Below are positions 2,812 through 31,200 of a stretch of DNA of 37,729 nucleotides, one piece after another (the first letter of the stretch is position 1; every line of letters starts with the position of its first letter). The stretch comes from Bacteroidetes bacterium GWA2_31_9 (lineage in GTDB: Bacteria > Bacteroidota > Bacteroidia > Bacteroidales > GWF2-33-38), in NCBI GenBank assembly GCA_001768975.1, contig MEND01000155.1, forward strand, positions 56,067 to 93,795, written 5' to 3'. Under the pieces are notes generated by a model. The model did not search any database and was not told the origin of the DNA. It saw nothing but the letters and a program-made list of their open reading frames with translations. Made by a program: the position numbers and the translations under genes.

Positions 2812-2841
2812 CTAAAAATGCCATCTTAATAGATGGCATTT
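2812..2841 (-). terminator. Rho-independent terminator downstream of dnaA
   Basis: A perfect 11-bp stem, AAATGCCATCT (2816-2826) with AGATGGCATTT (2831-2841), closes a TAAT loop and is followed by TTTTTAG on the minus strand. It starts 2 bases after the dnaA stop codon and ends 12 bases before the pepD start, so pepD must have its own promoter or depend on read-through. Confidence 0.75.
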
Positions 2842-2843
2842 AT

Positions 2844-4271: not shown

Positions 4272-4618
4272 TATTAATCAATGCTTTATATATATTTTTA
4301 ATACTTTATTTTCTCTTAGCAAGGTTTCAAAAAAAAGTGGAAAAAAAAAATTATTTACTATTGTTTTTCTCGTAAAAAACATATGGAATTTAAAATCAGC
4401 CTAATAAAATTATAAATATTTTTTTCAATCTCAAACAATTATAAATCAACAGATTGCATTCAAGCACGTTGACATAAAACTTATAATAAGCTATTTAATA
4501 ACTTTTATTAAATTATTACTTTAATAAAAAAATTTATCAAATCCTGATAATGCTTTAAAATTAGCCTTTATTATTGATTAAACAAAGGATTTAGGAGAAT
4601 TATTTAAAATAAATATTG
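4272..4618. other. 347-bp AT-rich intergenic region upstream of dnaA
   Basis: No open frame of note was found here on either strand. The stretch is extremely AT-rich with homopolymer runs (a 10-A run near 4341-4350) and short palindromes such as CTTATAATAAG. I searched by eye for TTATNCACA and its complement and found no match, so there is no direct evidence that this is oriC. The dnaA promoter must lie here, but no perfect TAnnTTTG box was seen close to the start. Confidence 0.5.
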
Positions 4619-5620: not shown

Positions 5621-5656
5621 TGTTACATTGTTAAATTGTTGTTAAGCAGTATAATC

Positions 5657-5702
5657 CTAAATTCATAAATCTCTAAATTCTAAATCACAAAATTCCTAAA
5701 TC
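5657..5702. repeat. Two imperfect 23-bp tandem repeats (CTAAAT motif)
   Basis: CTAAAT occurs at 5657, 5673, 5680 and 5696, spaced 16, 7 and 16 bases, which defines two adjacent 23-bp units (5657-5679 and 5680-5702) that match at about 16 of 23 positions. It lies between the amidase and mlaD-like genes. No function is evident. Confidence 0.5.
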
Positions 5703-5721
5703 ACTAATATCGTTTTCAAAT

Positions 5722-6900: not shown

Positions 6901-6932
6901 TTTTAACTATAATAAAACAAACATTTTTTAGT

Positions 6933-6940
6933 TAGTTTTG
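6933..6940 (+). promoter_or_regulatory. Bacteroidota -7 box (TAGTTTTG) upstream of lptD
   Basis: TAGTTTTG matches TAnnTTTG perfectly and lies in the 44-bp gap between the divergent amidase and lptD-like genes. The predicted transcript start, about 5-7 bases downstream, falls on the first possible TTG start codon at 6945. Either the mRNA is leaderless or the true start is further in. Confidence 0.45.
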
Positions 6941-6944
6941 CCAA

Positions 6945-9539
6945 TTGCATTTTATTAATAATAACAGAACTTTGTGCAAAAATAGTATAATAAAAGTTTA
7001 TTTAAAAGTATTGTTAAGTATAGCATTCATTTTAATGAGTTCTAATCTCTTTCTGATTAAAGCTCAATATAATGATTCTATTGCAATTAATCTTGACACT
7101 CTTAATCAACCTTTAAAGTCTGAAACAATATCCTCAGATACATCAAAGCCAACAAAATCAAACAAAATTGATGCTATAATTACATACAATGCTCAAGATT
7201 CTATTCGTTTTGATTTAGGAAATCACAAAGTATATCTATTTGGAAATGCTGTAATTAATTATAAAGCGATTGAATTAAAAGCTGATTATATTGAACTTGA
7301 CCTATCTTCGGATTTAATTTTTGCTGAGGGTGTGAAAGATAGTACTGATAGCATAAAAGGAAGCCCACAGTTTAAAGATGGCGATGATCAATTCAATTGT
7401 AAAAAATTATTATATAATTTTAAATCAAAAAAGGGTTTAATATATGATGTAATTACCGAACAAGGAGGAGGATACCTTCATAGTGGAGTTACTAAAAAAC
7501 AAGAAAACAGTAGTATTGACATTAAGCATGGAAAATTCACAACATGTAATCTCGAACATCCACATTTTTATGTAAGTTTAACAAAAGCAAAAGCGATTCC
7601 AAATGATAAAATAATTTCTGGTCCAGCATATTTAGTTATTGAAGATGTCTCTTTGCCCTTAGGAATTCCATTTGGTTATTTTCCAAATAAAAAAGGTCAT
7701 ACTTCTGGCTTAATAATACCAGAATATGGTGAAGAATTAAACAGAGGCTTTTTCCTTAGAAACGGTGGATATTATTTTGCTATAAGCGATTATGTTGATT
7801 TGAAACTACTTGCTGACATTTACTCAAGAGGAAGCTGGGCTGCAAATGTGACTTCAAATTACAGATTACGATATAAATTTTCAGGAAATGTTTATTTCAA
7901 ATACGAAAATGTAATTGTTGGGGAATCTTTTCAAACAAATTATAAAAACACCAAAACATACTGGCTAAAGTGGAATCATCGACAAGAACAAAAAGCGAGA
8001 CCTTACAGTAATTTCTCCGCTAATGTTGATTTTGGAAAAAGTTCTTTTCATAAATATAGTGCTTATACCGACCCAAATAGTTATTTACAAAACACTACAC
8101 AATCTAATATTTCGTATCAAAAAAGATTTCCGAATACTCCATTTAATTATTCTTTAAACTTAAGACATAGTCAAAACAGTCTTGATTCCATGGTGACACT
8201 TGGATTACCTGAGGTTGCTCTAAATATGAATAGACTTTATCCGTTTAAAAGAAAAAAAACGGTAGGAAATGCAAAGTTTTATGAAAAAATTGGTATTTCA
8301 TATACTTCAAATATCAGAAATACAGTAACTGATAAAGACACTGCACTTTTCAGACCTGAAATTTTAACAAAAATGAAGAATGGAATGCAGCATAATATTC
8401 CAATTAGTACTTCATTTAACATATTAAAATTTGTAACTGTTAATCCATCTTTTAATTACAAAGAAGTTTGGTATCTAAACTCAATTAACAGATATCTAAA
8501 TGATACAAATGGAATAACTACTGACACTATTCAAAAATTTGTAAGAGCTGGCGATAGAAGCTTTAATACATCTTTAAGTACAAAACTATACGGCATGTAT
8601 GTATTTAAAGGAGAAAAGCAAGCTGCCATCAGGCATGTTATGACACCAAGCATAGGCTATAGTATTCGTCCAGACTATAGCAAATCTAAATTTGACTATT
8701 ACAGATATTACTATGCTGATTCTTCACATCAGGACTCAATAATGTACTCAAGATTTGCAAATGGGATTTTTGGCTCGCCTCCAAGTGGAAAATCCGGAAA
8801 TATTAATTTTTCATTAGGAAATAATGTTGAGATGAAATTGAAAAGCAAAAAAGATACAACTCAAACCTTTAAAAAGATTATGATTTTAGAAAGTTTTAGT
8901 ATTTCTTCTTCATATAATCTTGCAGTTGATTCTCTAAAATTAGCACCTTTTTCAATAAACGGAAGAACAACATTATTTAAAAAACTTAATTTGAATTTTA
9001 GTGGAGTTATTGAGCCTTATGCTCTTGACACAGCAAAAAAAACATTAATTAATAAATTTGAATACAACGAGTCAGGAAAAATTGGACGCTTAACTAATGC
9101 AAATATTTCAGTTGGTTTTAGATTAAATTCAAAATCAAAATCAAAAACAGAAAATAGTGAAAAGACTAAAGACTTAATTGGATTTCCTGATGACTACGTT
9201 GATTTCAATATTCCTTGGAATGTAAACATAGATTATAGTTATAGATATAGCAAACCTCAACTTGAAGAAAACATTACACAATCATTAAGAGTAAGTGGAG
9301 ATTTAAGTATTACTTCTAAATGGAAAATTAGTGTATCAAGTGGATATGATATAAAATTGAAAAAATTCACATTTACAAACATCAATATATACAGAGACTT
9401 ACATTGCTGGGAGATGCGATTTACATGGATTCCATTTGGATTTGCTCAAAGTTATAATTTTCAGATTAATGTAAAATCGGCAATACTTCAGGATTTAAAG
9501 CTTAATAAGAGAAGCAGTTGGTCTAATTCCAATTACTAA
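6945..9539 (+). CDS. lptD: Outer-membrane LPS assembly protein, LptD/OstA-like
   Basis: Inserts lipopolysaccharide into the outer leaflet of the outer membrane. After a signal peptide ending near ...FLIKAQ (about residue 41), an OstA/LptA-like jelly-roll domain occupies about 60-190 (GNHKVYLFGNAVINYKAI, ADYIELDLSSDLIFAEG). The remainder is a large beta-barrel region with alternating aromatic strands, matching the Bacteroidota type of LptD, and 864 residues fits that family. The frame opens with TTG at 6945, and there is no in-frame ATG before residue 33, which is inside the signal peptide. A second TTG at 6972 (codon 10) would give a more ordinary signal peptide and leave a short leader after the -7 box. 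The stop overlaps the last two bases of the convergent rfbD stop. Confidence 0.9.
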   Translation: MHFINNNRTLCKNSIIKVYLKVLLSIAFILMSSNLFLIKAQYNDSIAINLDTLNQPLKSETISSDTSKPTKSNKIDAIITYNAQDSIRFDLGNHKVYLFGNAVINYKAIELKADYIELDLSSDLIFAEGVKDSTDSIKGSPQFKDGDDQFNCKKLLYNFKSKKGLIYDVITEQGGGYLHSGVTKKQENSSIDIKHGKFTTCNLEHPHFYVSLTKAKAIPNDKIISGPAYLVIEDVSLPLGIPFGYFPNKKGHTSGLIIPEYGEELNRGFFLRNGGYYFAISDYVDLKLLADIYSRGSWAANVTSNYRLRYKFSGNVYFKYENVIVGESFQTNYKNTKTYWLKWNHRQEQKARPYSNFSANVDFGKSSFHKYSAYTDPNSYLQNTTQSNISYQKRFPNTPFNYSLNLRHSQNSLDSMVTLGLPEVALNMNRLYPFKRKKTVGNAKFYEKIGISYTSNIRNTVTDKDTALFRPEILTKMKNGMQHNIPISTSFNILKFVTVNPSFNYKEVWYLNSINRYLNDTNGITTDTIQKFVRAGDRSFNTSLSTKLYGMYVFKGEKQAAIRHVMTPSIGYSIRPDYSKSKFDYYRYYYADSSHQDSIMYSRFANGIFGSPPSGKSGNINFSLGNNVEMKLKSKKDTTQTFKKIMILESFSISSSYNLAVDSLKLAPFSINGRTTLFKKLNLNFSGVIEPYALDTAKKTLINKFEYNESGKIGRLTNANISVGFRLNSKSKSKTENSEKTKDLIGFPDDYVDFNIPWNVNIDYSYRYSKPQLEENITQSLRVSGDLSITSKWKISVSSGYDIKLKKFTFTNINIYRDLHCWEMRFTWIPFGFAQSYNFQINVKSAILQDLKLNKRSSWSNSNY

Positions 9540-10387
9540 AGTTCTTTTAAACACCTTTGTAAACCGTCTTTCCAGTGTAGAATTTCAATATTAAAAGTAG
9601 ATTTTATCTTATTTTTATTCAAAACACTATAATGTGGTCTTTTGGCAGGAGTTGGATATTCGGAAGTCAAGATTGGAGTAATTTTACAATTAATGTTTTT
9701 TGCATTAACAATTTCTAAAGCAAAATCGTACCAACTACAAACTCCTTCGTTTGAATAATGATAAATTCCGCTTTCAAATTTATTTGATTTAACAATTTGC
9801 AAAATAGTTGATGCTAAATCCTCAGCATAAGTTGGAGTTCCAATTTGGTCAAAAACTACTTTTAATTCAGGTTTTTCTTTAGAATATTTCAGAATTGTTT
9901 TAACAAAATTATTTCCGAATGATGAATAAAGCCATGATGTTCTTATAATTATAGCATCACAACCAGATTTTTCAATTTGCTTTTCACCTTCAAGTTTAGT
10001 GATTCCATATTGCGAAACAGGGCTAACTTGAATATCCTCAGTATAAGGCAAACATGAAGTTCCATCAAAAACATAATCGGTAGAAATATGAATTAATTTT
10101 ATTTTATATTGCAAAGCAATTTCCGACAAGTATTTTACTGCTTCTGAATTAATTAATAATGCTTTATCAGTCTCTGTTTCAGCTTTGTCAACGGCTGTAT
10201 ATGCAGCACAATTTATGATAAAATCGTAATTGTTAGCTTTAAAATGTAATTTTAATGTGTCTGAATTTGTAATGTCGAGCTCATTAACATCGGTAAAATT
10301 AAACTTACAATCAGGATAATTAGCCGATAATTTTCTTAGCTCGTTTCCAAGCTGACCGTTTGAACCTGTTATTAATATTTTTTTCAA
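9536..10387 (-). CDS. rfbD: dTDP-4-dehydrorhamnose reductase
   Basis: Catalyses the last step of dTDP-L-rhamnose synthesis, reducing dTDP-4-dehydro-rhamnose with NAD(P)H. The 283 residues form an extended SDR fold: a Rossmann motif TGSNGQLG (7-14), DVNELDITN (33-41), NCAAYTAVDKAE (59-70), the STDYVFDG segment (102-109), the catalytic YGITK (Tyr127, Lys131), and RTSWLYSSFGNNFV, all typical of RfbD/RmlD. It lies on the same strand as rfbC, rfbA, the UDP-xylose synthase and ugd, but a MNT-HEPN gene pair separates it from rfbC; the HEPN stop is 26 bp upstream of its start. The stop codon overlaps that of the convergent lptD gene. Confidence 0.96.
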   Translation of the reverse strand: MKKILITGSNGQLGNELRKLSANYPDCKFNFTDVNELDITNSDTLKLHFKANNYDFIINCAAYTAVDKAETETDKALLINSEAVKYLSEIALQYKIKLIHISTDYVFDGTSCLPYTEDIQVSPVSQYGITKLEGEKQIEKSGCDAIIIRTSWLYSSFGNNFVKTILKYSKEKPELKVVFDQIGTPTYAEDLASTILQIVKSNKFESGIYHYSNEGVCSWYDFALEIVNAKNINCKITPILTSEYPTPAKRPHYSVLNKNKIKSTFNIEILHWKDGLQRCLKEL

Positions 10388-10413
10388 TGAATCTGAAATT
10401 AATTAGAATTAAG

Positions 10414-10803
10414 TTATTTATTTAGCATTTTTTCAATAATTTCAATAAGTTCTTTAGCTGGCTTAAAATAAGGCATGACTTTATCTTTATCAAAATCAAA
10501 TAAATCGTCGTAATCTCCCTTTTGTCTCCATGTAAAAAGTTGTGAATATATCTTTCCAAATTCAGTAGGAATCTTTTTTGTTAAAATAAAATGTTCTGAA
10601 AAATTTGATTTTGCACCATTATGTGTTGTTGGTTTAAGTCCTGAATCTAAAAGTAGAGCAATAACTGCATAATATACAGAATAATATAATCTATTTATTA
10701 CTGAATTCCATTTGTTTTTTTCAGCTAAAATTTGTGCATCTTCAAATGTATCCTTTGCTCTTAAGAGTCTATACTTTATTAAATCTTCTTTTGCTCCTAT
10801 CAT
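10414..10803 (-). CDS. HEPN-domain protein, putative toxin of a MNT-HEPN pair
   Basis: A 129-residue all-helical protein of the HEPN family. The family signature NRLYYSVYYAV (37-47) is clear, followed by SGLKPTTHNGAKSNFSEHF (54-72) and a C-terminal GDYDD segment (about 96-100). In HEPN/MNT modules the HEPN protein is usually the RNase toxin, with an Rx4-6H active site. Here the conserved His61 is preceded by Lys57 rather than an Arg at the expected distance, so the canonical motif is not obvious and nuclease activity is uncertain. Its ATG overlaps the TGA of the upstream MNT gene by 4 bp, showing translational coupling. The pair interrupts the rfbC-rfbD order of the rhamnose cluster. Confidence 0.85.
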   Translation of the reverse strand: MIGAKEDLIKYRLLRAKDTFEDAQILAEKNKWNSVINRLYYSVYYAVIALLLDSGLKPTTHNGAKSNFSEHFILTKKIPTEFGKIYSQLFTWRQKGDYDDLFDFDKDKVMPYFKPAKELIEIIEKMLNK

Positions 10804-11120
10804 TTAATTCTTACTCCTTCATTTTTAATATTTTCAAATAATGGTGTAATTGAATGATTTTCGTACCAGTCAGATTTTGAATAAATTAATGGAGAAATAA
10901 TTTGACCAGTTTCAAGTTCAATTTCATAAAATTCATCCATGAACTTAGTTTCAAAATCGAATGAAATATTTTTTCTATTTAATAATATCAATAAATCCCA
11001 GTCCGATAATTTCTTAGCGTTACCTCTTGCACGCGAACCGTATAAATATATTTCCGAATCAGGAGCATTTTTATTTATTACTGCAATAATTTTATTCAAT
11101 ATTTGTTGTTTTATGCTCAT
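10800..11120 (-). CDS. MNT-family minimal nucleotidyltransferase, putative antitoxin
   Basis: A 106-residue DNA polymerase beta-like nucleotidyltransferase. The motif GSRARG (28-33) followed by DWDLL (Asp40 and Asp42 as metal-binding carboxylates) is complete, so the active site looks intact. In type VII toxin-antitoxin systems the MNT partner neutralises HEPN by transferring AMP to it; that role is inferred here from the gene pair and the 4-bp overlap. The antisense frame 10939-11133 is a shadow. A perfect -7 box sits only 5-12 bases upstream of the ATG, so the module probably has its own, nearly leaderless transcript in addition to read-through from rfbC, whose stop is 51 bp upstream. Confidence 0.87.
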   Translation of the reverse strand: MSIKQQILNKIIAVINKNAPDSEIYLYGSRARGNAKKLSDWDLLILLNRKNISFDFETKFMDEFYEIELETGQIISPLIYSKSDWYENHSITPLFENIKNEGVRIK

Positions 11121-11124
11121 AGAA

Positions 11125-11132
11125 CAAAAATA
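11125..11132 (-). promoter_or_regulatory. Bacteroidota -7 box (TATTTTTG) for the MNT-HEPN pair
   Basis: On the minus strand TATTTTTG matches TAnnTTTG perfectly and ends 5 bases before the MNT start codon, in the 51-bp gap after rfbC. A start site 5-7 bases downstream would give a leaderless or nearly leaderless mRNA. No convincing TTTG -33 element was seen. Confidence 0.4.
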
Positions 11133-11171
11133 GTAATTTATTAGATTAGTTTATTTTTTATCGAATATTAT

Positions 11172-11720
11172 TCAAAAATTCATCTCAGCCTTATCAAAAC
11201 CACACATATTCCTATCTCGTTCTGAAACAAGCCTTTTGTTGGCAGGAATTTTCCAATCAATGTTTAGTTTTTTATCGTTAAAAGCAATTCCTCTTTCTCT
11301 GTCGGGACGATAATTGAAATCGCATTTATAAAAAACTACTGCTGTTTCGCTTAAAACCGAAAAACCATGAGCAAATCCTTTTGGAATAAGTAATTGAGTG
11401 TAGTTTTCGTCTGACAATTCAACACCAAACCATTGCCCGAAAGTTGGTGAGTTTTTTCTAATATCGACAGCAACATCATAGATTTTTCCTGAAAATACTC
11501 TTACTAATTTTGTTTGAGCTTCGGGTTGTAATTGATAATGCAAACCTCTGATTACTCCATACGATGATTTTGATTGATTATCTTGTACGAATTGGTTAGA
11601 AAAACCTAATTCTTGCAATTTTTCTAAATTATAACTTTCAAAAAAATAACCTCTTTCGTCTTTAAAGACCTTTGGTTGAATAATTTTTAAGTCCTTTATT
11701 GGAGTTTCAATTACTTGCAT
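11172..11720 (-). CDS. rfbC: dTDP-4-dehydrorhamnose 3,5-epimerase
   Basis: Third enzyme of dTDP-L-rhamnose synthesis, epimerising C3 and C5 of the 4-keto sugar. The 182-residue cupin protein shows FKDERGYFFESY (19-30), the catalytic GVIRGLHYQ with His61, VRVFSGKIYDVAVDIR (73-88), IPKGFAHGF (112-120) and the Tyr131 region, all standard for RmlC. It starts 4 bp after the rfbA stop, consistent with an operon. On its other side the MNT-HEPN pair separates it from rfbD. Confidence 0.97.
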   Translation of the reverse strand: MQVIETPIKDLKIIQPKVFKDERGYFFESYNLEKLQELGFSNQFVQDNQSKSSYGVIRGLHYQLQPEAQTKLVRVFSGKIYDVAVDIRKNSPTFGQWFGVELSDENYTQLLIPKGFAHGFSVLSETAVVFYKCDFNYRPDRERGIAFNDKKLNIDWKIPANKRLVSERDRNMCGFDKAEMNF

Positions 11721-11724
11721 TTAT

Positions 11725-12612
11725 TTACAAATTAACAGTTAAAACTTCTTCATTGGCAACATGAATAAGATACTCGCCATATTGATTTTTCTTGAGAGGC
11801 TCTGCTAAAGCAAGTAATTGCTCTTTATTAATAAATCCTTTTTTGTATGCAATTTCCTCAATACAAGCAATTTTTAACCCTTGACGATGTTCAATAGTTG
11901 CAATATAATTTGATGCTTCGAGCATACTTTCGTGTGTTCCTGTATCAAGCCAAGCCATTCCACGTCCTAATAAATTTACTTTTAGACGATTTTCATTCAA
12001 ATATAGTCGGTTCAAATCGGTTATTTCAAGTTCGCCACGAGCAGATGGTTTTAAATTTTTTGCTTTTTCAACCACGTCATTGCTATAAAAATATAAACCT
12101 GTAACTGCATAATTCGATTTTGGATTTTTTGGTTTTTCTTCAAGACTTAAAACTTTTCCGGTTTTATCGAACTCAGCAACACCATAGCGTTCAGGGTCTT
12201 TTACATAATATCCAAAAACTTCGGCTCCATCTTTAAGTTTGTAAGAATTCATTAACATTCCACTAAATCCGTAGCCATAGAAAATATTATCGCCCAAAAC
12301 CATACAAACATTATCGTTTCCGATAAATTTTTCGCCAATTATAAATGCTTGTGCAAGTCCATCGGGAGAGGGCTGAATTTCGTAAACTATATTAAGTCCG
12401 AGTTGCGAACCATCGCTAAATAAATCTTTATAAAGCTGAATGTCTTTAGGTGTTGAGATAATTAAAATATCTCTTATTCCAGCCAACATTAGCACTGATA
12501 GCGGATAATAAATCATCGGCTTATCATAAATTGGGATTATTTGTTTTGAAATACTGCGAGTTATCGGATACAATCTTGTACCTGAACCTCCTGCGAGAAT
12601 TATTCCTTTCAT
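11725..12612 (-). CDS. rfbA: Glucose-1-phosphate thymidylyltransferase
   Basis: Makes dTDP-glucose from dTTP and glucose-1-phosphate, the entry step to dTDP-rhamnose. The 295 residues match the RmlA family: GGSGTRLYP (8-16) binds the nucleotide, [17 protein letters not shown] (30-46), LGDNIFYG for metal binding, [19 protein letters not shown], and WLDTGTH near the allosteric region. Its ATG overlaps the TGA of the upstream UDP-xylose synthase by 4 bp (ATGA), and rfbC follows 4 bp after its stop, so these three genes are tightly coupled. rfbB, the next enzyme in the pathway, is not in the window. Confidence 0.97.
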
Positions 12613-13547
12613 TTTTCTAATAATTTTTTAAAATAATCAATAGTCTTAACCAATCCTTCGTCTAATTTAATTTTTGGTTCCCAATTTAATTTGTTTTTTG
12701 CAATCGAAATATCAGGTTTTCGCTGCATTGGGTCGTCTGATGGTAATTTATTATATATAATTTTTGATTTTGAATTTGTTAATTTTATAACTTTTTCGGC
12801 TAATTCATTAATAGTAAACTCTCCGGGGTTCCCCATATTTACTGGTCCTATAAATCCTGTTTCAGAATTCATCATTTTAAGCATACCGTCAACCAAATCG
12901 TCAACATACTGAAAGCTACGAGTTTGATTTCCATCGCCATAAACTGTAATGTTTTCATTTTTTAAAGCCTGAACTATAAAATTTGAAACCACTCTCCCAT
13001 CGTTTGGATGCATTCGAGATCCGTAAGTATTGAAGATTCTGATAATTTTTATGTCAACTTTATTTTGACGGTGATAATCCATAAAAAGAGTTTCGGCACA
13101 GCGTTTTCCTTCGTCATAACAAGAACGAATTCCGATTGGATTTACATTTCCCCAATAATCTTCGGTTTGTGGATGTACTTTTGGGTCGCCATAAACTTCA
13201 CTTGTAGAAGCCTGTAAAATTGTTGCTCTGATTCGCTTTGCCAATCCTAACATATTAATTGCTCCCATAACAGAAGTTTTAACTGTTTTTATCGGATTGT
13301 ATTGATAATGAATTGGTGAGGCAGGACAAGCAAGGTTATAAATTTGGTCAACCTCAACAAAATAAGGCATTGTTACATCGTGGCGAACAATTTCGAAAAG
13401 AGGATTTTTGATTAAATGAACAATATTCCTTTTATCTCCTGTAAAATAATTATCAAGCGAAATTACTTCGTTTCCTTCGTTAAGTAATCGCTCAATAAGA
13501 TGAGAACCTATAAATCCAGCTCCTCCGGTTACTAATATTTTTTTCAT
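12609..13547 (-). CDS. UDP-glucuronate decarboxylase (UDP-xylose synthase)
   Basis: A cytoplasmic SDR enzyme that oxidatively decarboxylates UDP-glucuronate to UDP-xylose. From the chosen Met the 312 residues begin directly with the Rossmann motif [10 protein letters not shown] (7-16); a longer frame up to 13601 adds an 18-residue lysine-rich leader absent from the family, so I start at 13547. TSEVYGDP (115-122, with Glu117 as in decarboxylases) and YDEGKR (Tyr144, Lys148) are diagnostic, as are NLACPASP and [10 protein letters not shown]. These motifs exclude RmlB (dTDP-glucose 4,6-dehydratase), although it sits where rmlB would be expected. The substrate would come from the Ugd enzyme encoded 172 bp upstream. 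Confidence 0.94.
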
Positions 13548-13587
13548 CTGTTTAAATTTCTTTATTTGACTCTGATTTATTTTTTTT

Positions 13588-13630
13588 GACAGGATTAACA
13601 AGATTTACAGGTTAATCCTGTAATCCTGTC
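13588..13630. repeat. Intergenic ATCCTGT inverted repeat
   Basis: GACAGGATTAAC (13588-13599) is inversely repeated as GTTAATCCTGT (13611-13621), followed at once by a further AATCCTGTC (13622-13630) that can also pair with the left arm. The 172-bp gap between ugd and the UDP-xylose synthase holds this element and no gene. It resembles the short palindromic ATCCTGT-type repeats scattered through Bacteroidota intergenic regions. Confidence 0.65.
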
Positions 13631-13719
13631 TAAATTATTATTAAAATCATTCCTTTCCCAAAAAAATCGGGATATAAATAGTGTGCCCAAATTTTTGATA
13701 GAGAAAGATTCATCCGTTT

Positions 13720-15039
13720 TTAAGATTTTCTTCCCATACAAAAATACTCAAAGCCACTTTCTTTAACTTCTGCAATATCGTAAATATTTCGTCCATCGAA
13801 AATTACTTTAGTTTTCATAAGCTTTTCCATTACTTTAAAGTTTGGAACTCTAAACTCATTCCATTCTGTTACTACAAGTAATGCGTCTGAATCAATTAAG
13901 GCTTCGTACTGGTCTTTTGCATAGTGAATTTTATTGCCAATTTTGCGTTCACATTCGTGCATTGCCACTGGGTCGTAAGCATTTACTTTTGCTCCGGCTT
14001 CAATTAATTTGTCAATTATAACAAGTGCTGGAGCTTCACGCATGTCGTCGGTATTTGGCTTGAAAGATAAGCCCCAAATTGAAATTGTTTTACCTTTTAA
14101 ATTTCCATTAAAGTAATTATTCAATTTATTGAATAAAACTGATTTTTGTCTATCGTTTACATTTTCAACAGATTGCAAAACCTCTAACGTGTAATTATTT
14201 TCTTTAGCTGTTTTTATAAGTGCTTTTACATCTTTTGGGAAACATGAACCGCCGTAGCCAACACCAGGATACAGAAATTTATGTCCTATTCGAGTATCAC
14301 TACCAATTCCCTTTCTGACTAGATTAACATCTGCACCTACAATTTCGCAAAGATTTGCAATATCGTTCATAAAGCTGATTCTTGTTGCTAACATTGCGTT
14401 TGCAGCATATTTTGTTAACTCCGCAGAAGGAACGTCCATAAATAAAATTGGATGATTATTCAATACAAATGCTTTGTATAAACGTTTCATTATTTTTTCG
14501 GCATCTTCTGACTCTAAACCAATTACAATACGGTCGGGTTTAAGAAAATCGTCAATAGCATTACCTTCTTTCAAAAATTCGGGATTAGAAGCTACATCAA
14601 ATTTTAAGTTTGAACCACGCTTATTAAGTTCATCTTGAACAGCAGCTTTTACTTTTTTTGCAGTTCCAATTGGCACCGTACTTTTGGTAACTACAACTAT
14701 ATACTGGTTCATGTTTTTTCCAATTTCTCTTGCAACCCCTATTACGTATTGCAAATCGGCACTTCCATCTTCGTCGGGTGGAGTTCCTACTGCTATAAAA
14801 ACTGCTTCACACTCAACCAAACTTTCTTTAATATCTGTCGTAAAAAACAATCTTTCTTTTGCAACATTGCGTTGCACCATATCCTCTAATCCAGGCTCAT
14901 AAATAGGAATTTTTCCATTATTAAGCATTTTAATTTTGTTCTCGTCAATATCAACACAAGTAACTGTAATACCTGTTTCTGCAAAGCATGTTCCTGTAAC
15001 TAATCCTACATATCCTGTTCCTACAACTGAAATTTTCAT
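13720..15039 (-). CDS. ugd: UDP-glucose 6-dehydrogenase
   Basis: Oxidises UDP-glucose to UDP-glucuronate in two NAD-dependent steps. The 439 residues show the N-terminal Rossmann motif GTGYVGLVTGTCFAETG (7-23), AVGTPPDEDGSAD (83-95), TKSTVPIGT (118-126), NPEFLKEGNAIDDF (152-165), ELTKYAANAMLATRISFMN (207-225, with Lys210 and Asn214), and the catalytic Cys266 in GGSCFPKD. The C-terminal half has the UDP-binding ISIWGLSFKPNTDDMREAP. It is the first gene of the minus-strand sugar-nucleotide cluster and provides UDP-glucuronate for the UDP-xylose synthase downstream. No promoter was identified in the 57 bp before it. Confidence 0.97.
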   Translation of the reverse strand: MKISVVGTGYVGLVTGTCFAETGITVTCVDIDENKIKMLNNGKIPIYEPGLEDMVQRNVAKERLFFTTDIKESLVECEAVFIAVGTPPDEDGSADLQYVIGVAREIGKNMNQYIVVVTKSTVPIGTAKKVKAAVQDELNKRGSNLKFDVASNPEFLKEGNAIDDFLKPDRIVIGLESEDAEKIMKRLYKAFVLNNHPILFMDVPSAELTKYAANAMLATRISFMNDIANLCEIVGADVNLVRKGIGSDTRIGHKFLYPGVGYGGSCFPKDVKALIKTAKENNYTLEVLQSVENVNDRQKSVLFNKLNNYFNGNLKGKTISIWGLSFKPNTDDMREAPALVIIDKLIEAGAKVNAYDPVAMHECERKIGNKIHYAKDQYEALIDSDALLVVTEWNEFRVPNFKVMEKLMKTKVIFDGRNIYDIAEVKESGFEYFCMGRKS

Positions 15040-15096
15040 ATATTTTTAATTATTTTTAAAATAAGACTGATTTTGATTTGTACAATTAAAAGAACT

Positions 15097-15471
15097 TTAA
15101 ACTGCTGCATTTTTTTGTACAGCTTTCATAGTTTGATAAAAGTTTTTTAAAAGTTGAGGTATTAATTCATTGAGATTAATATTTTGCTTAATAATCCACT
15201 TTCTAACTTCTTTATCAAGTGGGAATTCTTCCATTTTTATCCATTGAATTTTACCAGAATCAATATCATCTTCTGTAATTTCTGGAATTTCGTTACAATC
15301 AATATTATCATCATCATAAAAGATAAGATTTTCAGGAACTCGAATTTTGTACTCATTAAAAAGAACAACCTCATTTACAGGTATATGTTCTTTTTTAAAA
15401 TCAATTTCTGATTGAGTAATCTTTTTCCCTGCATTAAGTAGTTTCAATGCTTTTTCCCAATATATTTTCAT
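15097..15471 (-). CDS. BrnA-like putative antitoxin with an N-terminal extension
   Basis: A 124-residue acidic/lysine-rich protein. The middle (IDCNEIPEITEDDIDSG, about 58-74) and the C-terminal segment (EFPLDKEVRKWIIKQN followed by a helix ending MKAV, about 82-117) follow the layout of BrnA antitoxins, in which an IDxSDIPEIT stretch precedes a ribbon-helix-helix DNA-binding region of the form LDxxVxxW. BrnA proteins are usually about 80-100 residues and normally follow a brnT toxin gene. Here only a 20-codon frame starting MEFEWDE, like the start of BrnT, remains upstream. The first 55 residues are not recognised. The assignment is by eye and moderate; the alternative is an uncharacterised protein. 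Confidence 0.5.
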   Translation of the reverse strand: MKIYWEKALKLLNAGKKITQSEIDFKKEHIPVNEVVLFNEYKIRVPENLIFYDDDNIDCNEIPEITEDDIDSGKIQWIKMEEFPLDKEVRKWIIKQNINLNELIPQLLKNFYQTMKAVQKNAAV

Positions 15472-15496
15472 TTGTTTTCACTTAAAAGATATTTGT

Positions 15497-15586
15497 CATG
15501 CAAAGTTCGCAAAGTTAAAAAAAATTCTTTGCACAAGCTGGCTCATACTGCCATTGGCAGTTTGCCTTCTTTGCAAACTTAGCGTG
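15497..15586. repeat. Long inverted repeat with inner hairpin (possible MITE-like element)
   Basis: CATGCAAAGTTCGCAAAG (15497-15514) is inversely repeated at 15569-15586 with 15 of 18 matches, and an inner perfect hairpin ACTGCC/GGCAGT (15547-15552 with 15556-15561) sits between the arms. It occupies the gap between the BrnA-like gene and the BrnT-like remnant. The remaining part of this 324-bp gene-poor gap (15472-15795) holds that remnant and the AT-rich leader of the phosphoglucomutase gene. Confidence 0.65.
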
Positions 15587-15598
15587 AAATCTTTTTTT

Positions 15599-15661
15599 TT
15601 AATCATTCTTTTGTGTATCATTATTTTTGGTCGTGAATGTTTCATCCCATTCAAATTCCAT
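15599..15661 (-). pseudogene. Possible remnant of a brnT toxin gene (20 codons)
   Basis: A minus-strand frame from ATG at 15661 encodes MEFEWDETFTTKNNDTQKND and stops at 15599. The first seven residues are the typical start of BrnT (DUF497) RNase toxins, and the frame lies just upstream of the BrnA-like gene in the usual toxin-then-antitoxin order. The following 13 residues do not continue the BrnT pattern, and the frame ends where the inverted-repeat element begins. The similarity is only seven residues, so chance is a real alternative. Confidence 0.3.
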
Positions 15662-15795
15662 TATTTATTACAAATTTAATAATGCAAATCAACTAATAAT
15701 GATAAATGTTGTAAATTTTATTTTTTAAAATTATTCTTTATATTTAAAAACTTATTAATTTTAAACTCGAAAATACAAATAAATAAAACATTTCT

Positions 15796-17538
15796 ATGGA
15801 AAACAATGATATATTAAATACAGTAAAACAAAAAGCTCAAATTTGGATTAATGGAAGTTTCGATTCTGAAACAAAAAAAAATGTAAAACACTTACTCGAA
15901 AATGATGAAAACGAACTCATTGAATCATTTTATCAGGATTTGGAATTTGGAACCGGTGGTTTACGTGGAATTATGGGAGTTGGGACAAATAGAATGAATA
16001 TTTATACTGTAGGAATGGCAACTCAAGGATTTTCAAACTACTTTAAACAACAGTTTCCAAATGAAAAACAAATTAAGGTTGCTGTTGCTCACGATAGCCG
16101 AAACAATAGTCGTTTATTTGCCGAAACAACAGCAAATATTTTTTCTGCAAACGGATTTAAGGTTTTCTTATTTGATTCGTTACGCCCAACACCGGAACTT
16201 TCGTTTGCAATTCGACATTTTGGTTGTCAGGGTGGAGTTGTTGTTACAGCTTCGCATAATCCTAAGGAATATAATGGATATAAAGCATATTGGAACGATG
16301 GAGGTCAACTTGTTGAACCACACGATAAAAATGTAATTGCCGAAGTTCAAAAAATCACTTCTGTAGATGATGTTAAATTTATAGGCAATGCTAAAAACAT
16401 TACAATTATTGGTAACGAAGTTGACGAAATTTATCTCGAAAAAATTAAGGAATTATCGTTATCTCCCGAATGTATTAAACGCAATAGTGATATTAATATA
16501 GTTTATACGCCAATTCATGGTTCTGGAACTAAGCTTGTTCCGATGATTCTTAAAAAATATGGATTTACAAATATCTCTATTGTAAAAGAACAGGAAACAC
16601 CAGATGGAAATTTTCCAACTGTAATTTCGCCAAACCCCGAAGTGCCTGATGCACTGAGATTGGCAATTGAAAAAGCAAAACAAGTTGGAGCCGATTTAGT
16701 TATGGCTACCGACCCCGATGCTGACAGAGTTGGAATTGCAGTGAGAAACAACCGAAACGAATTTATTTTATTAAACGGAAATCAAACAGGCTCTATTTTA
16801 GTGTATTATCTGCTTACAAAATGGAAACAAAATGGCAAATTAACTGGCAAAGAATATGTTTGCAAAACCATTGTTACAACCGAACTTATAAAAGCAATGT
16901 CGGACAAATTCGAGGTTGAATGTTTTGATGTACTAACTGGTTTTAAATACATTGCCGAATTAATTAAAGAAAATGAAGGCAAAAAACTATTCATCGGTGG
17001 CGGAGAAGAAAGCTACGGATATTTAGCCGGAGAATTTGTTCGCGATAAAGATGCCGTAATTGCCTGTGCGTTAATAGCCGAAGCTGCTGCATGGGCAAAA
17101 GATAATGGCAAAACATTTTACGAACTTCTGCTCGATATTTACGCAGAATATGGTTTATATAAAGAAGACCTTATAAACGTTGTTCGCAAAGGAAAATCGG
17201 GAGCCGAAGAAATTCAACAAATGATGAGCGATTATCGCAAAAATCCTCCAACTTCAATTAACAATTCAAAAGTTATAGAAATTCGTGATTATCAACTTAA
17301 AATAATCAAAAACCTTGTTACAGGAAAAGAATCGCAAATTAATATGCCAAAATCGAATGTATTGCAATTTTTCCTCGAAGATGGTTCAAAAATTACAGTT
17401 CGCCCATCGGGTACAGAACCTAAAATTAAGTTTTATGTTGGAGTTAAGGCTGATTTGAAAAATAGAGATGATTTTGAAAAGGTGGATAAGGAATTAGCAG
17501 AGAAGGTTTTTGGGGTGAAGAGGGGTTTGAAATTGTAA
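15796..17538 (+). CDS. Phosphoglucomutase/phosphomannomutase (alpha-D-phosphohexomutase)
   Basis: Interconverts hexose-1- and hexose-6-phosphates. The 580-residue protein belongs to the long PGM2-like group: substrate loop GTGGLRGIMG (about 52-61), catalytic phosphoserine Ser153 in TASHNPKEYNG, metal-binding DPDADRVG (about 307-314), sugar-specificity GGEESYGYL, and the phosphate-binding RPSGTEPKIKFY near the C-terminus. It is divergent from the sugar-nucleotide cluster, so its product glucose-1-phosphate could feed both RfbA and, through UDP-glucose, Ugd. It is followed 5 bp later by the SprA-like gene, suggesting co-transcription with an unrelated secreted protein. Confidence 0.96.
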   Translation: MENNDILNTVKQKAQIWINGSFDSETKKNVKHLLENDENELIESFYQDLEFGTGGLRGIMGVGTNRMNIYTVGMATQGFSNYFKQQFPNEKQIKVAVAHDSRNNSRLFAETTANIFSANGFKVFLFDSLRPTPELSFAIRHFGCQGGVVVTASHNPKEYNGYKAYWNDGGQLVEPHDKNVIAEVQKITSVDDVKFIGNAKNITIIGNEVDEIYLEKIKELSLSPECIKRNSDINIVYTPIHGSGTKLVPMILKKYGFTNISIVKEQETPDGNFPTVISPNPEVPDALRLAIEKAKQVGADLVMATDPDADRVGIAVRNNRNEFILLNGNQTGSILVYYLLTKWKQNGKLTGKEYVCKTIVTTELIKAMSDKFEVECFDVLTGFKYIAELIKENEGKKLFIGGGEESYGYLAGEFVRDKDAVIACALIAEAAAWAKDNGKTFYELLLDIYAEYGLYKEDLINVVRKGKSGAEEIQQMMSDYRKNPPTSINNSKVIEIRDYQLKIIKNLVTGKESQINMPKSNVLQFFLEDGSKITVRPSGTEPKIKFYVGVKADLKNRDDFEKVDKELAEKVFGVKRGLKL

Positions 17539-17543
17539 TAAGA

Positions 17544-19250
17544 ATGATACCAAAAAAAAAGCTTTTTCATACGCTTAAAATAATGTATAGTAGAAAGATC
17601 AAGTGTTGTGTTTTATCTGTTTTTATAGCGTACTTTTTTATAAATTCATCATTTTCACAAAACAATTATTACGAATATACTAAGGTAACTACTTTAGATA
17701 TTCACCATTATAGTGGATGGTATTTATCAAGTCTTCCAGAAAAACAACCTGTTTTATTTCCCGAATCTATGCTTACCGACAGTATTGGTTTTGGATTTAA
17801 CAGAGCCAAAATTTGCTGGTATTCTATTGACCCACTTTTTTTGAGAAACAATTCTGCTACTCCTACACACATTAAAGAAAACCCTGATTTTCAATCAAAC
17901 CATTTTGTTAGAGAAATTTTTGAAAAAGAAATTTTTCCAGATAGTGAACATCCAAATAATATACCTACAAATATTTCTGTACTAAATTTAGCTTATTATC
18001 CACAAGAAAAAGGACCTTATAATTATGATATAAATCAAACTACTTTTTCTTCCGGAATTGATTCAAATGGCCTATTACTAAACCCAAAATCACGCTGGGC
18101 TGGAATTATGAGAGAAATCGAAACTCCTGATTTTGAAAGAGCATCAATAAAAACTATTGAATTTTGGTTAATGGACCCTTTTGTATATGACACAATACAT
18201 TCTGGAGGGGAAATGTATATTAATCTTGGAGATATCTCTGAAGATATTCTAAAAGATTCTTGGCTATCATTCGAAAATTCACCTAAAGATACTACTTCTA
18301 TATGGGGTAATGTATCGACAATTACTCCTGGTTTATACATTGATAATAATAATCCATATAGATTTTCAGATTGTGGCTTAGATGGTTTTCCTGATTTTTC
18401 TGAAAGGCAATTTTTTAGTTATCCTAATTATATAAACAGCAAGTATTCATATTTAATTTCTATTTTAAATAGCTATGGAAGTCAATCTCTTGCATATCAA
18501 AATGCAATTCAAGACCCTTCTAATGATAACTATCACCATTTCAGAGGTTCTGATTACGACCAACTTCATTTAGGAATTATTGAACGTTATAAAAAATTTA
18601 ATTTACTAGAAGGAAATTCTACTTCTGAGAGAATAGCTTCAATTTTACCAGATTTTGAAGATATTAATAAAAATTTTGAACTTGAAGTTGCAGAAAATTA
18701 TTTCCAATATCAAATTCATATAAAACCTGATTCTTTTATTATTGGTCATAATTATATTGACGATACAATCTCCTATAACGCCACTTTTAAAAATGGAACA
18801 AAAAATTGGTTAACCTGGTTTCATTTTACAATACCAATTGAGTCGTTTCAAAAACGTTTTGGACAAATTAGCAGTTTTAAAAAAATTAAATTTATACGTA
18901 TTTTTTTGAAAAATTTTGAGGATTCTATTATTATGAGATTAGCTACTTTAGATTTAGTTCGAAAAGCTGATTATAAATATATTATCCCTAATGATATTGA
19001 GGCAAATAAATTATATATTTATCCAAATCCTTCAAATGGTAATTTTACAATATATTTATCAGATATTGAATGCCATATAATTGACCTTTATAATTTAGAT
19101 GGACAGAGAATTGATATTGATAATATTAAATCAACTGATTCAATGGGCCCCAAATTTATTAATATAAAAAACTTGAATAAAGGAATATATATTATTAAGG
19201 TTATTAGTGTTGATAATAAAGTATTTACTAGCAAAATTTTAATCTTATAA
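17544..19250 (+). CDS. Secreted SprA_N-like module with T9SS type-A sorting domain
   Basis: A 568-residue exported protein. A signal peptide precedes ...FINSSFSQ (about residue 39; Met14 at 17583 is an alternative start). Residues about 50-480 follow the N-terminal module of the giant type IX translocon protein SprA/Sov: FGFNRAKICWYSIDP, SVLNLAYYPQEKGPYNYD, SRWAGIMREIETPDFE, IEFWLMDPF, YINLGDISEDILKD, DGFPDFSE, then ILPDFEDIN, and KIKFIRIFL...LATLDLVRKADY at the end. SprA is usually over 2000 residues with a 36-strand barrel; none of that is present. Instead residues about 488-568 form a type-A T9SS C-terminal sorting domain (YIYPNPSNGNFTIYL ... GIYIIKVISVDNKVFTSKIL). This protein is therefore likely exported by T9SS, not part of its pore. 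Its role is unknown. It overlaps the next gene by 1 bp. Confidence 0.82.
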   Translation: MIPKKKLFHTLKIMYSRKIKCCVLSVFIAYFFINSSFSQNNYYEYTKVTTLDIHHYSGWYLSSLPEKQPVLFPESMLTDSIGFGFNRAKICWYSIDPLFLRNNSATPTHIKENPDFQSNHFVREIFEKEIFPDSEHPNNIPTNISVLNLAYYPQEKGPYNYDINQTTFSSGIDSNGLLLNPKSRWAGIMREIETPDFERASIKTIEFWLMDPFVYDTIHSGGEMYINLGDISEDILKDSWLSFENSPKDTTSIWGNVSTITPGLYIDNNNPYRFSDCGLDGFPDFSERQFFSYPNYINSKYSYLISILNSYGSQSLAYQNAIQDPSNDNYHHFRGSDYDQLHLGIIERYKKFNLLEGNSTSERIASILPDFEDINKNFELEVAENYFQYQIHIKPDSFIIGHNYIDDTISYNATFKNGTKNWLTWFHFTIPIESFQKRFGQISSFKKIKFIRIFLKNFEDSIIMRLATLDLVRKADYKYIIPNDIEANKLYIYPNPSNGNFTIYLSDIECHIIDLYNLDGQRIDIDNIKSTDSMGPKFINIKNLNKGIYIIKVISVDNKVFTSKILIL

Positions 19251-20971
19251 TGAAGAAAAACCCCTTCTCATTCTCATCTGTCATAATTATTTTTTCAACC
19301 TTAGTCATTATTAGGCTAATATACATTGATTTTTCAAATCGATCATTTCAGTGGGATTCCCTTGGTTATTATATGTATCTACCATCGCAATACATTTATC
19401 ACGATGTTAAAGAATTGAAATGGTATCCTGAATTAAAAGAAAAATATAATTTTCCGGGCGATTTTTATCAGGCTAGTAAACATAAAGAAACCGGGAATTA
19501 TGTGTTTTTTTACACAATGGGAGTATCTGTTCTCGAAACTCCATTTTTCTTTATCGGTCATTTTGTTGCAGGATTTTTAGGATATTCTCAAGATGGTTTT
19601 TCTCCTCCATATCATTTAACAATTAATTTTGGTTTACTACTTTATCTTTTAGTAGGGTTTTTTCTACTCCGAAAAGTTCTGTTACGATGGTTCAGCGACA
19701 AAATTACTGCGATAGTTCTTTTGCTTGTGTGCCTTGCTACAAATTTTCCTCAGTATTCGGCAATTGAAGCCGGATTTACTCATGGCTATCTGTTTTTCAT
19801 TTATTGTTTAATGTTGTATTTTACAGTTATTTGGCACGATAATCCTACTTTAAAAAAGTCATTCGTGATTGGACTGATAATTGGGTTTGCAATACTAATA
19901 AGGGTTACAGACGCATTAATAATGTTTATTCCTATTTTTTGGAATTGCCATACAAAAGAGTTAAGAAAACAAAAAATTGCATTTTTTAAATCACAGCCAA
20001 AGCACATTTACATTGCAATTTTAGCTACATTTTTAATGTTACTACCTCAGCTTATATATTGGAATCACGTTACAGGTCATTTAATTCATCAAATGGGTTC
20101 AAAATGGCATTTTCTTAATCCGTTTTTCAGAGTTTTAGTGGGATGGGAAAAAGGTTGGTTTATATATACTCCAGTCGTATTATTTATGGTTTTAGGACTG
20201 TTTTTTATGAAAACCAAAGAGTTTCGTAATTCTGTATTAGTATTTATAATTTTAAATATATGGGTTGTAATATCATGGCATGTATGGCGTTATGGAGCGA
20301 GCTATTCGACTCGTGCTTTGGCACAATGTTTACCAGTATTGGCTTTTCCGCTTGGAGTTCTTATTACAAAAATCTATAAGAAAAAAGTCTTAATAATATT
20401 GTTTTCGATAACAGTTTCATATTTAACTATTGTGAATTTATTTCAGATATGGCAATACAACAAAGGAATTATTCATTATGACGATATGAACCGTCGGTAT
20501 TATCAAGCAGTATATCTTAATCCATCGCCAACACCTGTTGAAATGTCGTTGCTTGATACTGATGAATTTCTAAATAATGAAAATGATTTTAAACAAGAAA
20601 TAATTTTCAAATCAGATTCTGTGTTTATATTAAATGCTGAATATGATACGATTAATATTCTGTTTTCTGAAAAAATTTCTGAACACAATTTGTTAAATGC
20701 AAAATGGCTAAAACTATCGGTTAATTACAAAACAGATTATACGGTTTGGGGAGCATATTTTGTAGCAGAGCTAAAAAACAGCTCAGGTTTAATCAAACAA
20801 CGTTCAATAAGATTAGATAATGTTCTTTTTAAATCTAATTTAAAAAATACAGCCGAGTTTTATTTTAATACTGAAAATGCAAATTCAGATGATGAACTTA
20901 TCATATATGGTAAAACTATAATGAATAGTAAAATTGAATTAACTGATTTTAAAATTATATCATATTTTTGA
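19250..20971 (+). CDS. GT-C-like polytopic membrane protein (putative glycosyltransferase)
   Basis: A 573-residue inner-membrane protein with about ten transmembrane segments in the first 410 residues and a soluble, beta-rich C-terminal region (about 420-573). The acidic loop after the first segment (DFSNRSFQWDSLGYYMYLP, about 27-45), the aromatic luminal loops and the segment IEAGFTHGYLFFIYCLMLY resemble the GT-C fold of lipid-linked sugar transferases such as ArnT/PMT, where an Asp in the first loop is catalytic. I could not place it in a named family. Its ATG overlaps the stop of the SprA-like gene (TAATG), so the two are translationally coupled, which may link glycosylation and the secreted protein. 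It ends at a strong terminator. Confidence 0.7.
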   Translation: MKKNPFSFSSVIIIFSTLVIIRLIYIDFSNRSFQWDSLGYYMYLPSQYIYHDVKELKWYPELKEKYNFPGDFYQASKHKETGNYVFFYTMGVSVLETPFFFIGHFVAGFLGYSQDGFSPPYHLTINFGLLLYLLVGFFLLRKVLLRWFSDKITAIVLLLVCLATNFPQYSAIEAGFTHGYLFFIYCLMLYFTVIWHDNPTLKKSFVIGLIIGFAILIRVTDALIMFIPIFWNCHTKELRKQKIAFFKSQPKHIYIAILATFLMLLPQLIYWNHVTGHLIHQMGSKWHFLNPFFRVLVGWEKGWFIYTPVVLFMVLGLFFMKTKEFRNSVLVFIILNIWVVISWHVWRYGASYSTRALAQCLPVLAFPLGVLITKIYKKKVLIILFSITVSYLTIVNLFQIWQYNKGIIHYDDMNRRYYQAVYLNPSPTPVEMSLLDTDEFLNNENDFKQEIIFKSDSVFILNAEYDTINILFSEKISEHNLLNAKWLKLSVNYKTDYTVWGAYFVAELKNSSGLIKQRSIRLDNVLFKSNLKNTAEFYFNTENANSDDELIIYGKTIMNSKIELTDFKIISYF

Positions 20972-28238: not shown

Positions 28239-31200
28239 ATGAGACATTTTACAGAACATATAATTTTAATAATTTTTGTTTCTGTAATAACTTTGTTTTT
28301 TTCTTTCAAAAGCTCAGCTCAAGATTGTACAATTACATCTAAGGCTAACGATATGATTCCGGACAAACTTTGTGCTCCGGTTTCTTTGTCTTGGGAAGTT
28401 ACATATAGAGGCGTAAATGATAATGGAACCTCCGTAGAAATTCAGTTTAACTGGGATGATGGAAATCCAACCGAAACAGTTGCTGCTATTAGTACTAATC
28501 CTGCACAGAAAGAATGGAAAGTTCTAGTTAATCACGTTTATCCTAAAGGAGGTATTTCTTGCAACTATAATCCAACTGCCACCCTTGTTGTTAATGGAGT
28601 ACTTTGTACAAGTTCAATTCAAGAACAAAACGTAACTGTTTGGGATACCGACGACGAAAATGGTGGAGCTGTAACTATTTCACCACAAGTATTTCCTATA
28701 TGTGTTGGCAATTCAGGAACTGTAACATTTCAAGATGTTTCAATTTTCAATTGTGTCCCACCTGTAGAAAACGACAATCAAAACTTAGCAACACGTTGGA
28801 CTCAGTGGGTTTATGGAACTAGTTTTACAATTTCAAATGTATTAGTTAATGGTTCTGCTCAAGCATATCCATATTATGATGCAGTTTATGAACATACTGG
28901 TCCTGTAACCGGACCTCAACCTCCAAATGATTTTAGCTTTCCATGCTTTTCGCCTGCCACGGCTACTGTTGCCCAATTTTTTGAAGTTACTCTCAGATAT
29001 TGGAATTACTGTAATCCTTATGACGACCCAAATATTCCCGGACTACCAGCAGATTTGGTTAATGGAGATAATCCTCCTGTTATAGGAACAGCAATGATTT
29101 TAATTGTTCCTCGACCTGATGCAACAATAACGCCAGCTGGACCTTTTTGTGAAAACGCATCTGCTGTATTTTTAACTGCTGCAACTGCAGGAGGAACATG
29201 GTCAGGGACAGGAATTACCAACTCTTCAAATGGACGGTTTAATCCTGCAACAGCTGGACCTGGAACTCACACAATAACATACATAGTTACCGATGGAAAC
29301 GGATGTGCAGGAACTGATACAGAAACAATTACTGTTTATGCAATTCCCAACCCAAACATTTTGCCTTCATCACCTGCAGAGGTTTGCCCGGGAGACTCAC
29401 TTCAACTTGATGGAAATCCAATTCAAGGAAGTGGAAATATCATTACACATTTATGGACTGGAAATACTGCTCCGTTAACTGCAACAAATATTCAAAATCC
29501 GTATTTTTATACAAACACACAAGGTTCTTATGTTTTAACATACAAAGTTACAGACGATAACAGCTGTTTTAAGGCTGAAAATATAACTGTAAATGTTAAC
29601 CCCGTTTCTGCAAACATAATTCCAAATCCAGCTGAAGCTTGTAAAGGTCAAAATTTTATAATTAACGGAAATCCTTCGGGTGGAACTGGAAATTATGTTA
29701 CACACGACTGGAGTGGCGATGCCATTTTACTTAGCGATTCTACAATTCAAACTCCAATATTTAATTCTGCAGTTACTGGAATTTTTAACTTTTCGTACTT
29801 TGTTTCAGATAATAATGGCTGCTATGGAACTGATAATATTTCAGTTACAGTATTTGATGTCCCAGTTTCTAACGCTGGAATAAACGACAGTATTTGTGGA
29901 AAAAACTATTCATTTTCTGCAATACCAAGCATTGGAACAGGAACTTGGTCGAAAAGCTCAGGTGCTGGAACTGCCAATTTTACAAATGTTAACAGCCCTA
30001 CATCATCTGTAAGTGTTAGCTCATTTGGAACTTATCAGTTTAAATGGAAAGAAGTTTTTGGTCCAAATTGTTCCGATAGTGCATTTGTAACAATAACATT
30101 TATTGAAACTCCAATATCTAATGCAGGAACTGACAATAGCACTTGCGGATTTAACATTCAACTAAATTCTGTTCCAAGCGTTGGAGTTGGAGAATGGAGT
30201 CTTTTATCAGGAACAGGCAATTTAAATTTTACAAGTATAAACTCGAATAATAGCTTTATTACTGCCGATACTTATGGGAGTTATGAGCTTATTTGGTCAG
30301 AGGACAATTCGTTTGGATGCGTTGATAACGATACAGTTACTATTAATTTTGATGTTGTTCCAATTACACTTTTTACTCCATTTGATTCGTCGGGATGTAC
30401 TCCTTTTACTATTAACTTTATTGATAATTCTGTTGGTTCGTCAATATATTTATGGAATTTCGGAGGTACAAACACTTCAAGTAATCAAAATCCTACATAT
30501 ACTTTCATTAACAATGGAACTTCAAACTTAAGTTTTGATGTTAAATTAGTTACAAGTTCAATTTATGGATGTAAAGACTCAATTAGCACAACTGTAACAG
30601 TTTTTCCAAAACCAAATTCAGTATTTACACACGATGCAACACCATCATGCAGTCCACTAAGTGTCAATTTTACAAATACATCAACAGAATCTAATTTTCA
30701 TATCTGGAATTATGCTGATGGAAGCGGAAACGACACAATTTTTCAAAATTCTCATATATTTACAAACGACACTTCATTTATTCAGTATCTTAATGTACAG
30801 CTAATTGCTGTATCTGCAAATAACTGCAAAGACACATCATCGCAAATAATTACAGTTTATCCAAATCCAAATTACAACTTTGTTATAAATCCAGATTCGG
30901 CTTGTCATCCTGCAAATGTAAACCTGCTTGCTACACCTGGAGCTTTTGTTTACACTTGGAATTTTGGCGACGGATCAACATCAAATGGCAGTTATAATAT
31001 TAATCACAACTATGTAAACAATTCAAATACAGACACTAGCTTTACTATTAAACTAAATACAACCTCATTATTGGGATGCAAAGATTCATCAACACAACAA
31101 GTTACAATCCATCCAAAACCTTCAGCAATTTTCACAATTGATACAAATTCAGGTTGTACTCCATTGAATATTCTTTTTACTAATAATTCGCAAAATGCCT

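Follow-up and report, generated by a model that had tools for sequence, protein, structure and literature searches.

The window (the whole stretch of DNA analysed, 37,729 nucleotides) belongs to a genome of 4.96 Mb, hereafter G000, which is 91% complete and assembled in 288 contigs. It carries a gene whose product combines a piece of SprA, the T9SS translocon, with putative signals for export. We call this product the lone protein, and such SprA pieces encoded outside sprA lone modules. The features of the locus are the following:

15796..17538, + strand: phosphoglucomutase/phosphomannomutase gene, upstream neighbour, ending 5 bases before the lone gene
17544..19250, + strand: lone SprA-module gene, 568 aa (TIGR04189, Pfam, PDB, direct reading)
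17544..17657, + strand: putative signal peptide, residues 1-38, ending ...FINSSFS/QNN (read from the sequence)
17685..18980, + strand: SprA middle module, residues 48-479, probable extracellular cap lobe (TIGR04189, PDB, AF2, Foldseek)
18483..18974, + strand: Pfam SprA_N (PF14349) match, residues 314-477, the sole part so matched (model 11-181 of 510)
19017..19244, + strand: type-A T9SS C-terminal sorting domain, residues 492-567 (PF18962, TIGR04183, PDB, Foldseek)
19250..20971, + strand: 573-aa polytopic membrane protein, downstream neighbour, its ATG overlapping the TAA of the lone gene by one base (TAATG)

The phosphoglucomutase/phosphomannomutase gene and the lone gene, which share a strand, are possibly read in one transcript. 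The downstream membrane protein has no Pfam, NCBIfam or PDB match; by its sequence (FQWDSLGYY) it has the look of a candidate GT-C glycosyltransferase. No conserved neighbourhood was found around lone genes, and no relative of this membrane protein lies beside the others. Neighbours of lone genes are pgm, trmD, etfAB, pntAB and similar genes, and no lone gene was seen next to T9SS translocon genes.

Direct reading confirmed the 568-residue frame at 17544-19250 and all six motif strings quoted by an earlier sequence-only reading of this DNA. The N-terminus is basic and then hydrophobic, ending in SSFS/QNN, and AF2 places a low-confidence helix at residues 4-34 of this signal-peptide region. A second in-frame ATG at 17583, which may be the true start, gives a shorter and equally good putative signal peptide. 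The central part of the protein matches the SprA/Sov model TIGR04189 over residues 48-479 with 406 bits (curated cut-off 200), and the matched positions, 771-1197 of 2319, make up 18% of the model. In the SprA of F. johnsoniae (PDB 6h3i), the match spans residues 866-1267 of 2403 (E 7.7e-54). The sequence-only reading was thus right that the protein contains an SprA-type module of about 430 residues and wrong in calling it N-terminal, since these positions fall in the middle of SprA. Pfam SprA_N, for which it had proposed a search, does match significantly (157 bits, gathering cut-off 27) but only over residues 314-477. The name of this Pfam family is misleading as to position, and it matches the SprA of G000 itself twice (C283:30010-31155 and 33067-34671). 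That reading had staked its case on a significant SprA_N match, and strong SprA matches were returned by TIGR04189, Pfam and PDB searches alike. The sorting domain at the extreme C-terminus was recognised by both type-A families, as it had anticipated (PF18962, E 1.1e-11; TIGR04183, E 1e-10), and shows the motifs YPNPSNGNF and LNKGIYIIKV and a lysine close to the C-terminus. It is similar to the CTD chain 8glk_D in a PDB sequence search (E 3e-5), and Foldseek matches it to the CTD chains 8gl6_D and 8gl8_D. SprA homology and a type-A tail in one frame bear out the proposal of a T9SS-tagged protein derived from a piece of the secretion pore.

The AF2 model of the window protein (alignment A1, 54 rows; pTM 0.72) reaches pLDDT values that mostly exceed 85 between residues 55 and 475, except in a few loops, and contains no barrel. 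Its best PDB matches in Foldseek are four SprA entries (6h3i, 6h3j, 8gl6 and 8gl8; E 4.5e-33 to 1.3e-25). The next matches are far weaker and are to beta-sandwich domains, among them CTD chains and the CBM11 domain 6r31 (probability 1.00, E 0.011, TM 0.17 by query and 0.52 by target). Loops 241-247, 260-277 and 359-370 are unordered in the model, as are the corresponding loops (885-929, 934-940 and 1029-1042) in an SprA fragment from the relative L060; in both predictions they look as though the rest of SprA were required.

The SprA translocon is a 36-strand outer-membrane barrel of about 2400 aa. The full-length sprA of G000 is one open frame of 2591 aa on contig C283, separate from the window, and the module corresponds to about residue 916 to 1370 of it. 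To place the module with respect to the membrane, we used the AF2 model of a 1151-residue SprA stretch of L060 (alignment A2), whose mean pLDDT is 70, low in places, and which Foldseek matches to solved SprA with E down to 5e-92. Several strands precede a first soluble stretch, some 420 residues long, and four long strands (585-599, 602-615, 627-641 and 662-674) stand immediately ahead of the module. With an even number of strands between them, the two soluble stretches should lie on the same side. The N-terminus of SprA lies in the periplasm, to which the pore opens, and a cap covers its outer side (PMC10994853; PMC7463736). From the predicted strand pattern together with this published topology, we infer that the module is in the extracellular cap; we found no residue range for the cap in the openly accessible paper.

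A 288-contig assembly, with a second lone copy that stops at a contig edge, invites the suspicion that the gene is a remnant of a second full-length sprA or an assembly artefact. The window copy, however, is complete from its start through the tail to the stop in 1.7 kb, and the genes on either side are intact and unrelated. With the SprA of G000 as query, the sole significant match in the window is that of SprA residues 916-1393 at 17670-19070, and no barrel remnant was found there beside the lone gene. Moreover, the same architecture occurs in another genus, in Bacteroidetes bacterium GWF2_33_38 (G002, MEOF01000032), which has both sprA and a 568-aa lone protein with a tail. The sequence-only reading had conceded that it would fall if full-length sprA were missing from this genome and the frame were a broken piece of it; the open sprA frame lies on another contig. 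Because of this intact gene on C283 and the lack of a barrel remnant, we regard the explanation as refuted for practical purposes.

The second lone copy of G000 (C166:1-1134, cut by the contig end) is informative about how such genes are built. It has a signal peptide followed by SprA 753-818 joined directly to SprA 920 onward. The absent stretch, 819-919, corresponds to the four long strands in the AF2 model of L060 (fragment 585-674), and the junction therefore retained the soluble lobes and removed the membrane strands. Further along the same contig, the region G000:C166 (L036) 2310-19999, on the minus strand, is an SprB-like adhesin locus in the vicinity of this module: it comprises a PorP/SprF gene and a repeat protein that exceeds 5400 aa and ends in a T9SS-like C-terminus.

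Our search for the module covered 393 genomes from the order and 395 from the class, and we re-read most genomes with more than one match. The resulting numbers of lone genes are lower bounds, given that no more than four candidates per genome were scored in the first round of the large scans. Lone genes were found in at least four Bacteroidales families: in that of the window (f1), with two copies in G000 and one in G002; in f64 (at least 1 of 10 genomes, G390); in f67 (at least 3 of 17; G392, G776 and the stop-interrupted G784); and in f119 (at least 2 of 16; G792, intact, and G217, frameshifted). The lone gene is missing from all but a few per cent of the sprA-bearing genomes in the two scans, and where present it always shares the genome with a full-length or near full-length sprA. 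A 691-aa frame (L082) taken at first for a lone module was rejected: SprA frames lie on its flanks, and it is an sprA that is either broken or misassembled. Second matches such as those in G028, G048, G054, G236, G333, G389, G391, G424, G496 and G541 proved to be sprA split over contigs or split alignments. We saw no sign of mobility, as the phage collection gave no module match and the plasmid collection a single sprA, whose record is classed as a plasmid.

The survey proposed by the sequence-only reading thus recovered its two-domain architecture, in GWF2_33_38 and also in f64. Type-A tails are carried by the lone proteins of G000, G002 and G390, while the C166 copy ends before its tail; that of G002 scores slightly below the Pfam cut-off (23.9 versus 27) and above that of NCBIfam (24.3 versus 23). 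The lone proteins of f67 and f119 have no tail and begin instead with lipobox-like sequences: LLMLYC/KPEESDF in G392, LLMFSC/KPDDTDE in G776, MVISC/KKEPAVI in G792 and LFMLSC/KKDPSGN in G217. The surface-export signal of LES lipoproteins is K-(D/E)2 (PMC5080379). The first two of these four starts resemble it, with K and acidic residues at +2 to +5, whereas the window protein has the T9SS tail in its place. Surface exposure of the f67 and f119 lone lipoproteins is thereby predicted, and judging from these signals both routes would bring the module outside, into the compartment of the cap.

In a carefully built tree, the window module, the second G000 copy and the G002 copy form a clade (support 100/96) that is nested in the sprA clade of their own family (99/99), with the same placement in two further trees. 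The window gene is therefore a partial copy of the sprA of its family, with which it shares 55-60% identity over about 430 residues, and an ancestral position is not supported for the window protein: SprA came first. Outside f1, one common lone clade (p 0.30) and repeated derivation from the sprA of the respective host (p 0.09, 0.27 and 0.35) both survive AU tests.

We then asked how strictly the module is conserved once free. Between the lone gene and the sprA of G000 we estimated dN 0.33 and dS 1.15, between the window and C166 copies dN 0.30 and dS 1.27, and between the sprA genes of G000 and G002 dN 0.25 and dS 2.16. The dN/dS of lone versus sprA is thus about 0.29, roughly twice the 0.12 between the two sprA genes of the family, although with dS near saturation these figures mean 'below one' rather than exact ratios. 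Across 109 full-length SprA modules, 74 columns are at least 97% conserved. Lone modules retain 75-96% of these invariant columns, versus 36-62% of the other consensus columns, and the two complete f1 copies keep 64 and 70 of the 74. Taken together, the fold of the lone module is under purifying selection, apparently less strict than in SprA.

This bears on the possibility that the genes are decaying fragments, products of partial duplication with accidental export signals that drift without a role. Such decay would account for the patchy distribution, the raised dN/dS, the frameshift in G217 and the interrupting stop in G784. Against it stand six intact complete frames (window, G002, G390, G392, G776 and G792), dN well below dS even between lone copies, the retention of the invariant positions, and the presence of export signals in all complete copies, where decay would have erased them. 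We consider decay improbable, though the window protein itself could have lost its function.

The losses do not look randomly scattered. Nine invariant positions (L228, K241, G246, Q275, S359, D377, T379, F445 and R449) are lost in at least three of the four lone clades, versus 2.0 expected at random (2.5 with residue type fixed); none of 20,000 shuffles reached nine, in a test that presumes independent lone clades, an independence that the tree does not settle. Two of the nine changes, L228I and S359T, are conservative, and the alignment of the loops is uncertain. Several of the nine lie in or near loops for which AF2 predicts no order when the rest of SprA is absent. This pattern points to residues that SprA would need and that a free domain would not.

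A rival reading is that the lone module acts on the translocon in trans. In the solved structure, the cargo CTD is bound jointly by the PorV loops and SprA, with the cap assisting (PMC10994853). A free cap lobe might then bind at the outer surface what the cap binds, be it cargo CTDs, PorV loops or another cap lobe, and so ease the release of the CTD from PorV, shield the pore or act as a regulatory decoy. Both lone forms seem routed to the compartment of the cap, the fold is kept, and sprA always accompanies the lone gene, all of which would suit such an accessory. The repeated loss of SprA-invariant positions would not, and neither would the lack of lone genes beside T9SS translocon genes or the fact that most genomes of the order and class that bear a T9SS have no such gene. 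We hold this role possible but unlikely, and think still less probable its more specific form, in which a soluble copy of the cap, exported by the parent machine or flipped as a lipoprotein, would bind cargo CTDs or PorV at the outer surface and control release or pore activity. The related idea of the sequence-only reading, a decoy, plug or competitor of the pore, is mildly disfavoured, because lone clades lost the same SprA-invariant positions and none of their genes was seen beside translocon genes. Its other option, a binding fold reused outside SprA, fits best among those that it offered; the predicted structure has a weak jelly-roll likeness to CBM11.

Our preferred explanation, to which we give a probability of roughly one half, is phrased as follows: the lone protein is an exapted surface binding domain, exported by T9SS, that arose by partial duplication of sprA and has been freed from docking into the translocon. 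One soluble SprA lobe from between transmembrane strands, probably the extracellular cap, would have been excised from a copy of the family's own sprA without the barrel strands and would have gained a signal peptide and a type-A T9SS tail. The protein would be synthesised in the cytoplasm and exported by Sec; its CTD would be recognised by PorV in the SprA pore, through which it would leave by the same T9SS, and the PorU sortase would attach it to the surface or release it. These steps beyond the type-A tail follow from established knowledge of T9SS, not from the data presented here. Outside, it may serve as a free folded binding domain whose ligand could be a surface glycan or protein, although the CBM likeness of the model is weak. 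Having lost residues that are invariant only in the context of SprA while retaining its fold, the module has most likely ceased to dock into the translocon.

Compared with SprA/Sov (TIGR04189; 6h3i, 6h3j, 8gl6, 8gl8), the lone protein shares the module, its predicted fold and the invariant motifs, but it lacks the transmembrane strands and the second soluble lobe (568 versus about 2500 aa), carries a T9SS tail, and has lost several SprA-invariant residues. Lacking a barrel, it does not belong to the SprA translocon family, despite scoring above the TIGR04189 cut-off. Like type-A T9SS cargo (PF18962/TIGR04183; RemA, RemZ), it consists of a putative signal peptide, a passenger and a type-A CTD with the conserved motifs, and its host has SprA, PorV and PorU, as type-A cargo demands; its passenger, however, is a translocon piece and not an enzyme or adhesin. 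We found no description of lone or duplicated SprA pieces in the open literature, subscription journals being mostly outside our coverage, and a lobe of the translocon itself as the passenger of a T9SS cargo is new in this sense. One practical consequence concerns annotation: the equivalog model TIGR04189 scores 311-451 bits on lone modules of 378-568 aa, exceeding its cut-off, so that small cargo proteins or lipoproteins may receive the name 'translocon Sov/SprA'. Our results also suggest that an SprA lobe can fold and be selected alone. Lone proteins would offer a soluble handle on a 2400-residue membrane pore, with which conserved residues required for the fold can be separated from those conserved only for the translocon; should they act in trans after all, they would represent a new kind of T9SS component.

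Several minor observations were made along the way. In G000 there are two genes for PorU-type sortases, one intact (C91:3170-6343) and one split into three frames (C7:23876-27835) beside a PorV gene; another PorV-like stretch, interrupted by six stops, lies at C153:5753. The sprA of the plasmid collection (PLSDB NZ_OY725768.1, 102715-103995) comes from a Parabacteroides distasonis record of 388 kb; catalogued as a non-mobilizable plasmid, this record is perhaps a chromosomal piece. Weak extra module matches at G582:C3:184820-185278 (457-aa frame, E 4.7e-4) and G243:C108:4432-4713 (248-aa frame, E 1.8e-4) are perhaps distant jelly-roll relatives of the SprA cap. The single-contig genome G448 contains a stop-broken sprA region (C1:2607173-2608469), either an assembly error or a degraded copy, and L067 (JAADHC010000055.1), named Chlorobiota, has an sprA that groups inside Bacteroidales and is probably a mislabelled assembly. 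Finally, positions 28239-36822 of the window hold a type-B cargo locus, with a 1982-aa PKD-repeat protein whose type-B T9SS tail scores below threshold; a PD40-repeat protein and PorP/SprF come after it.
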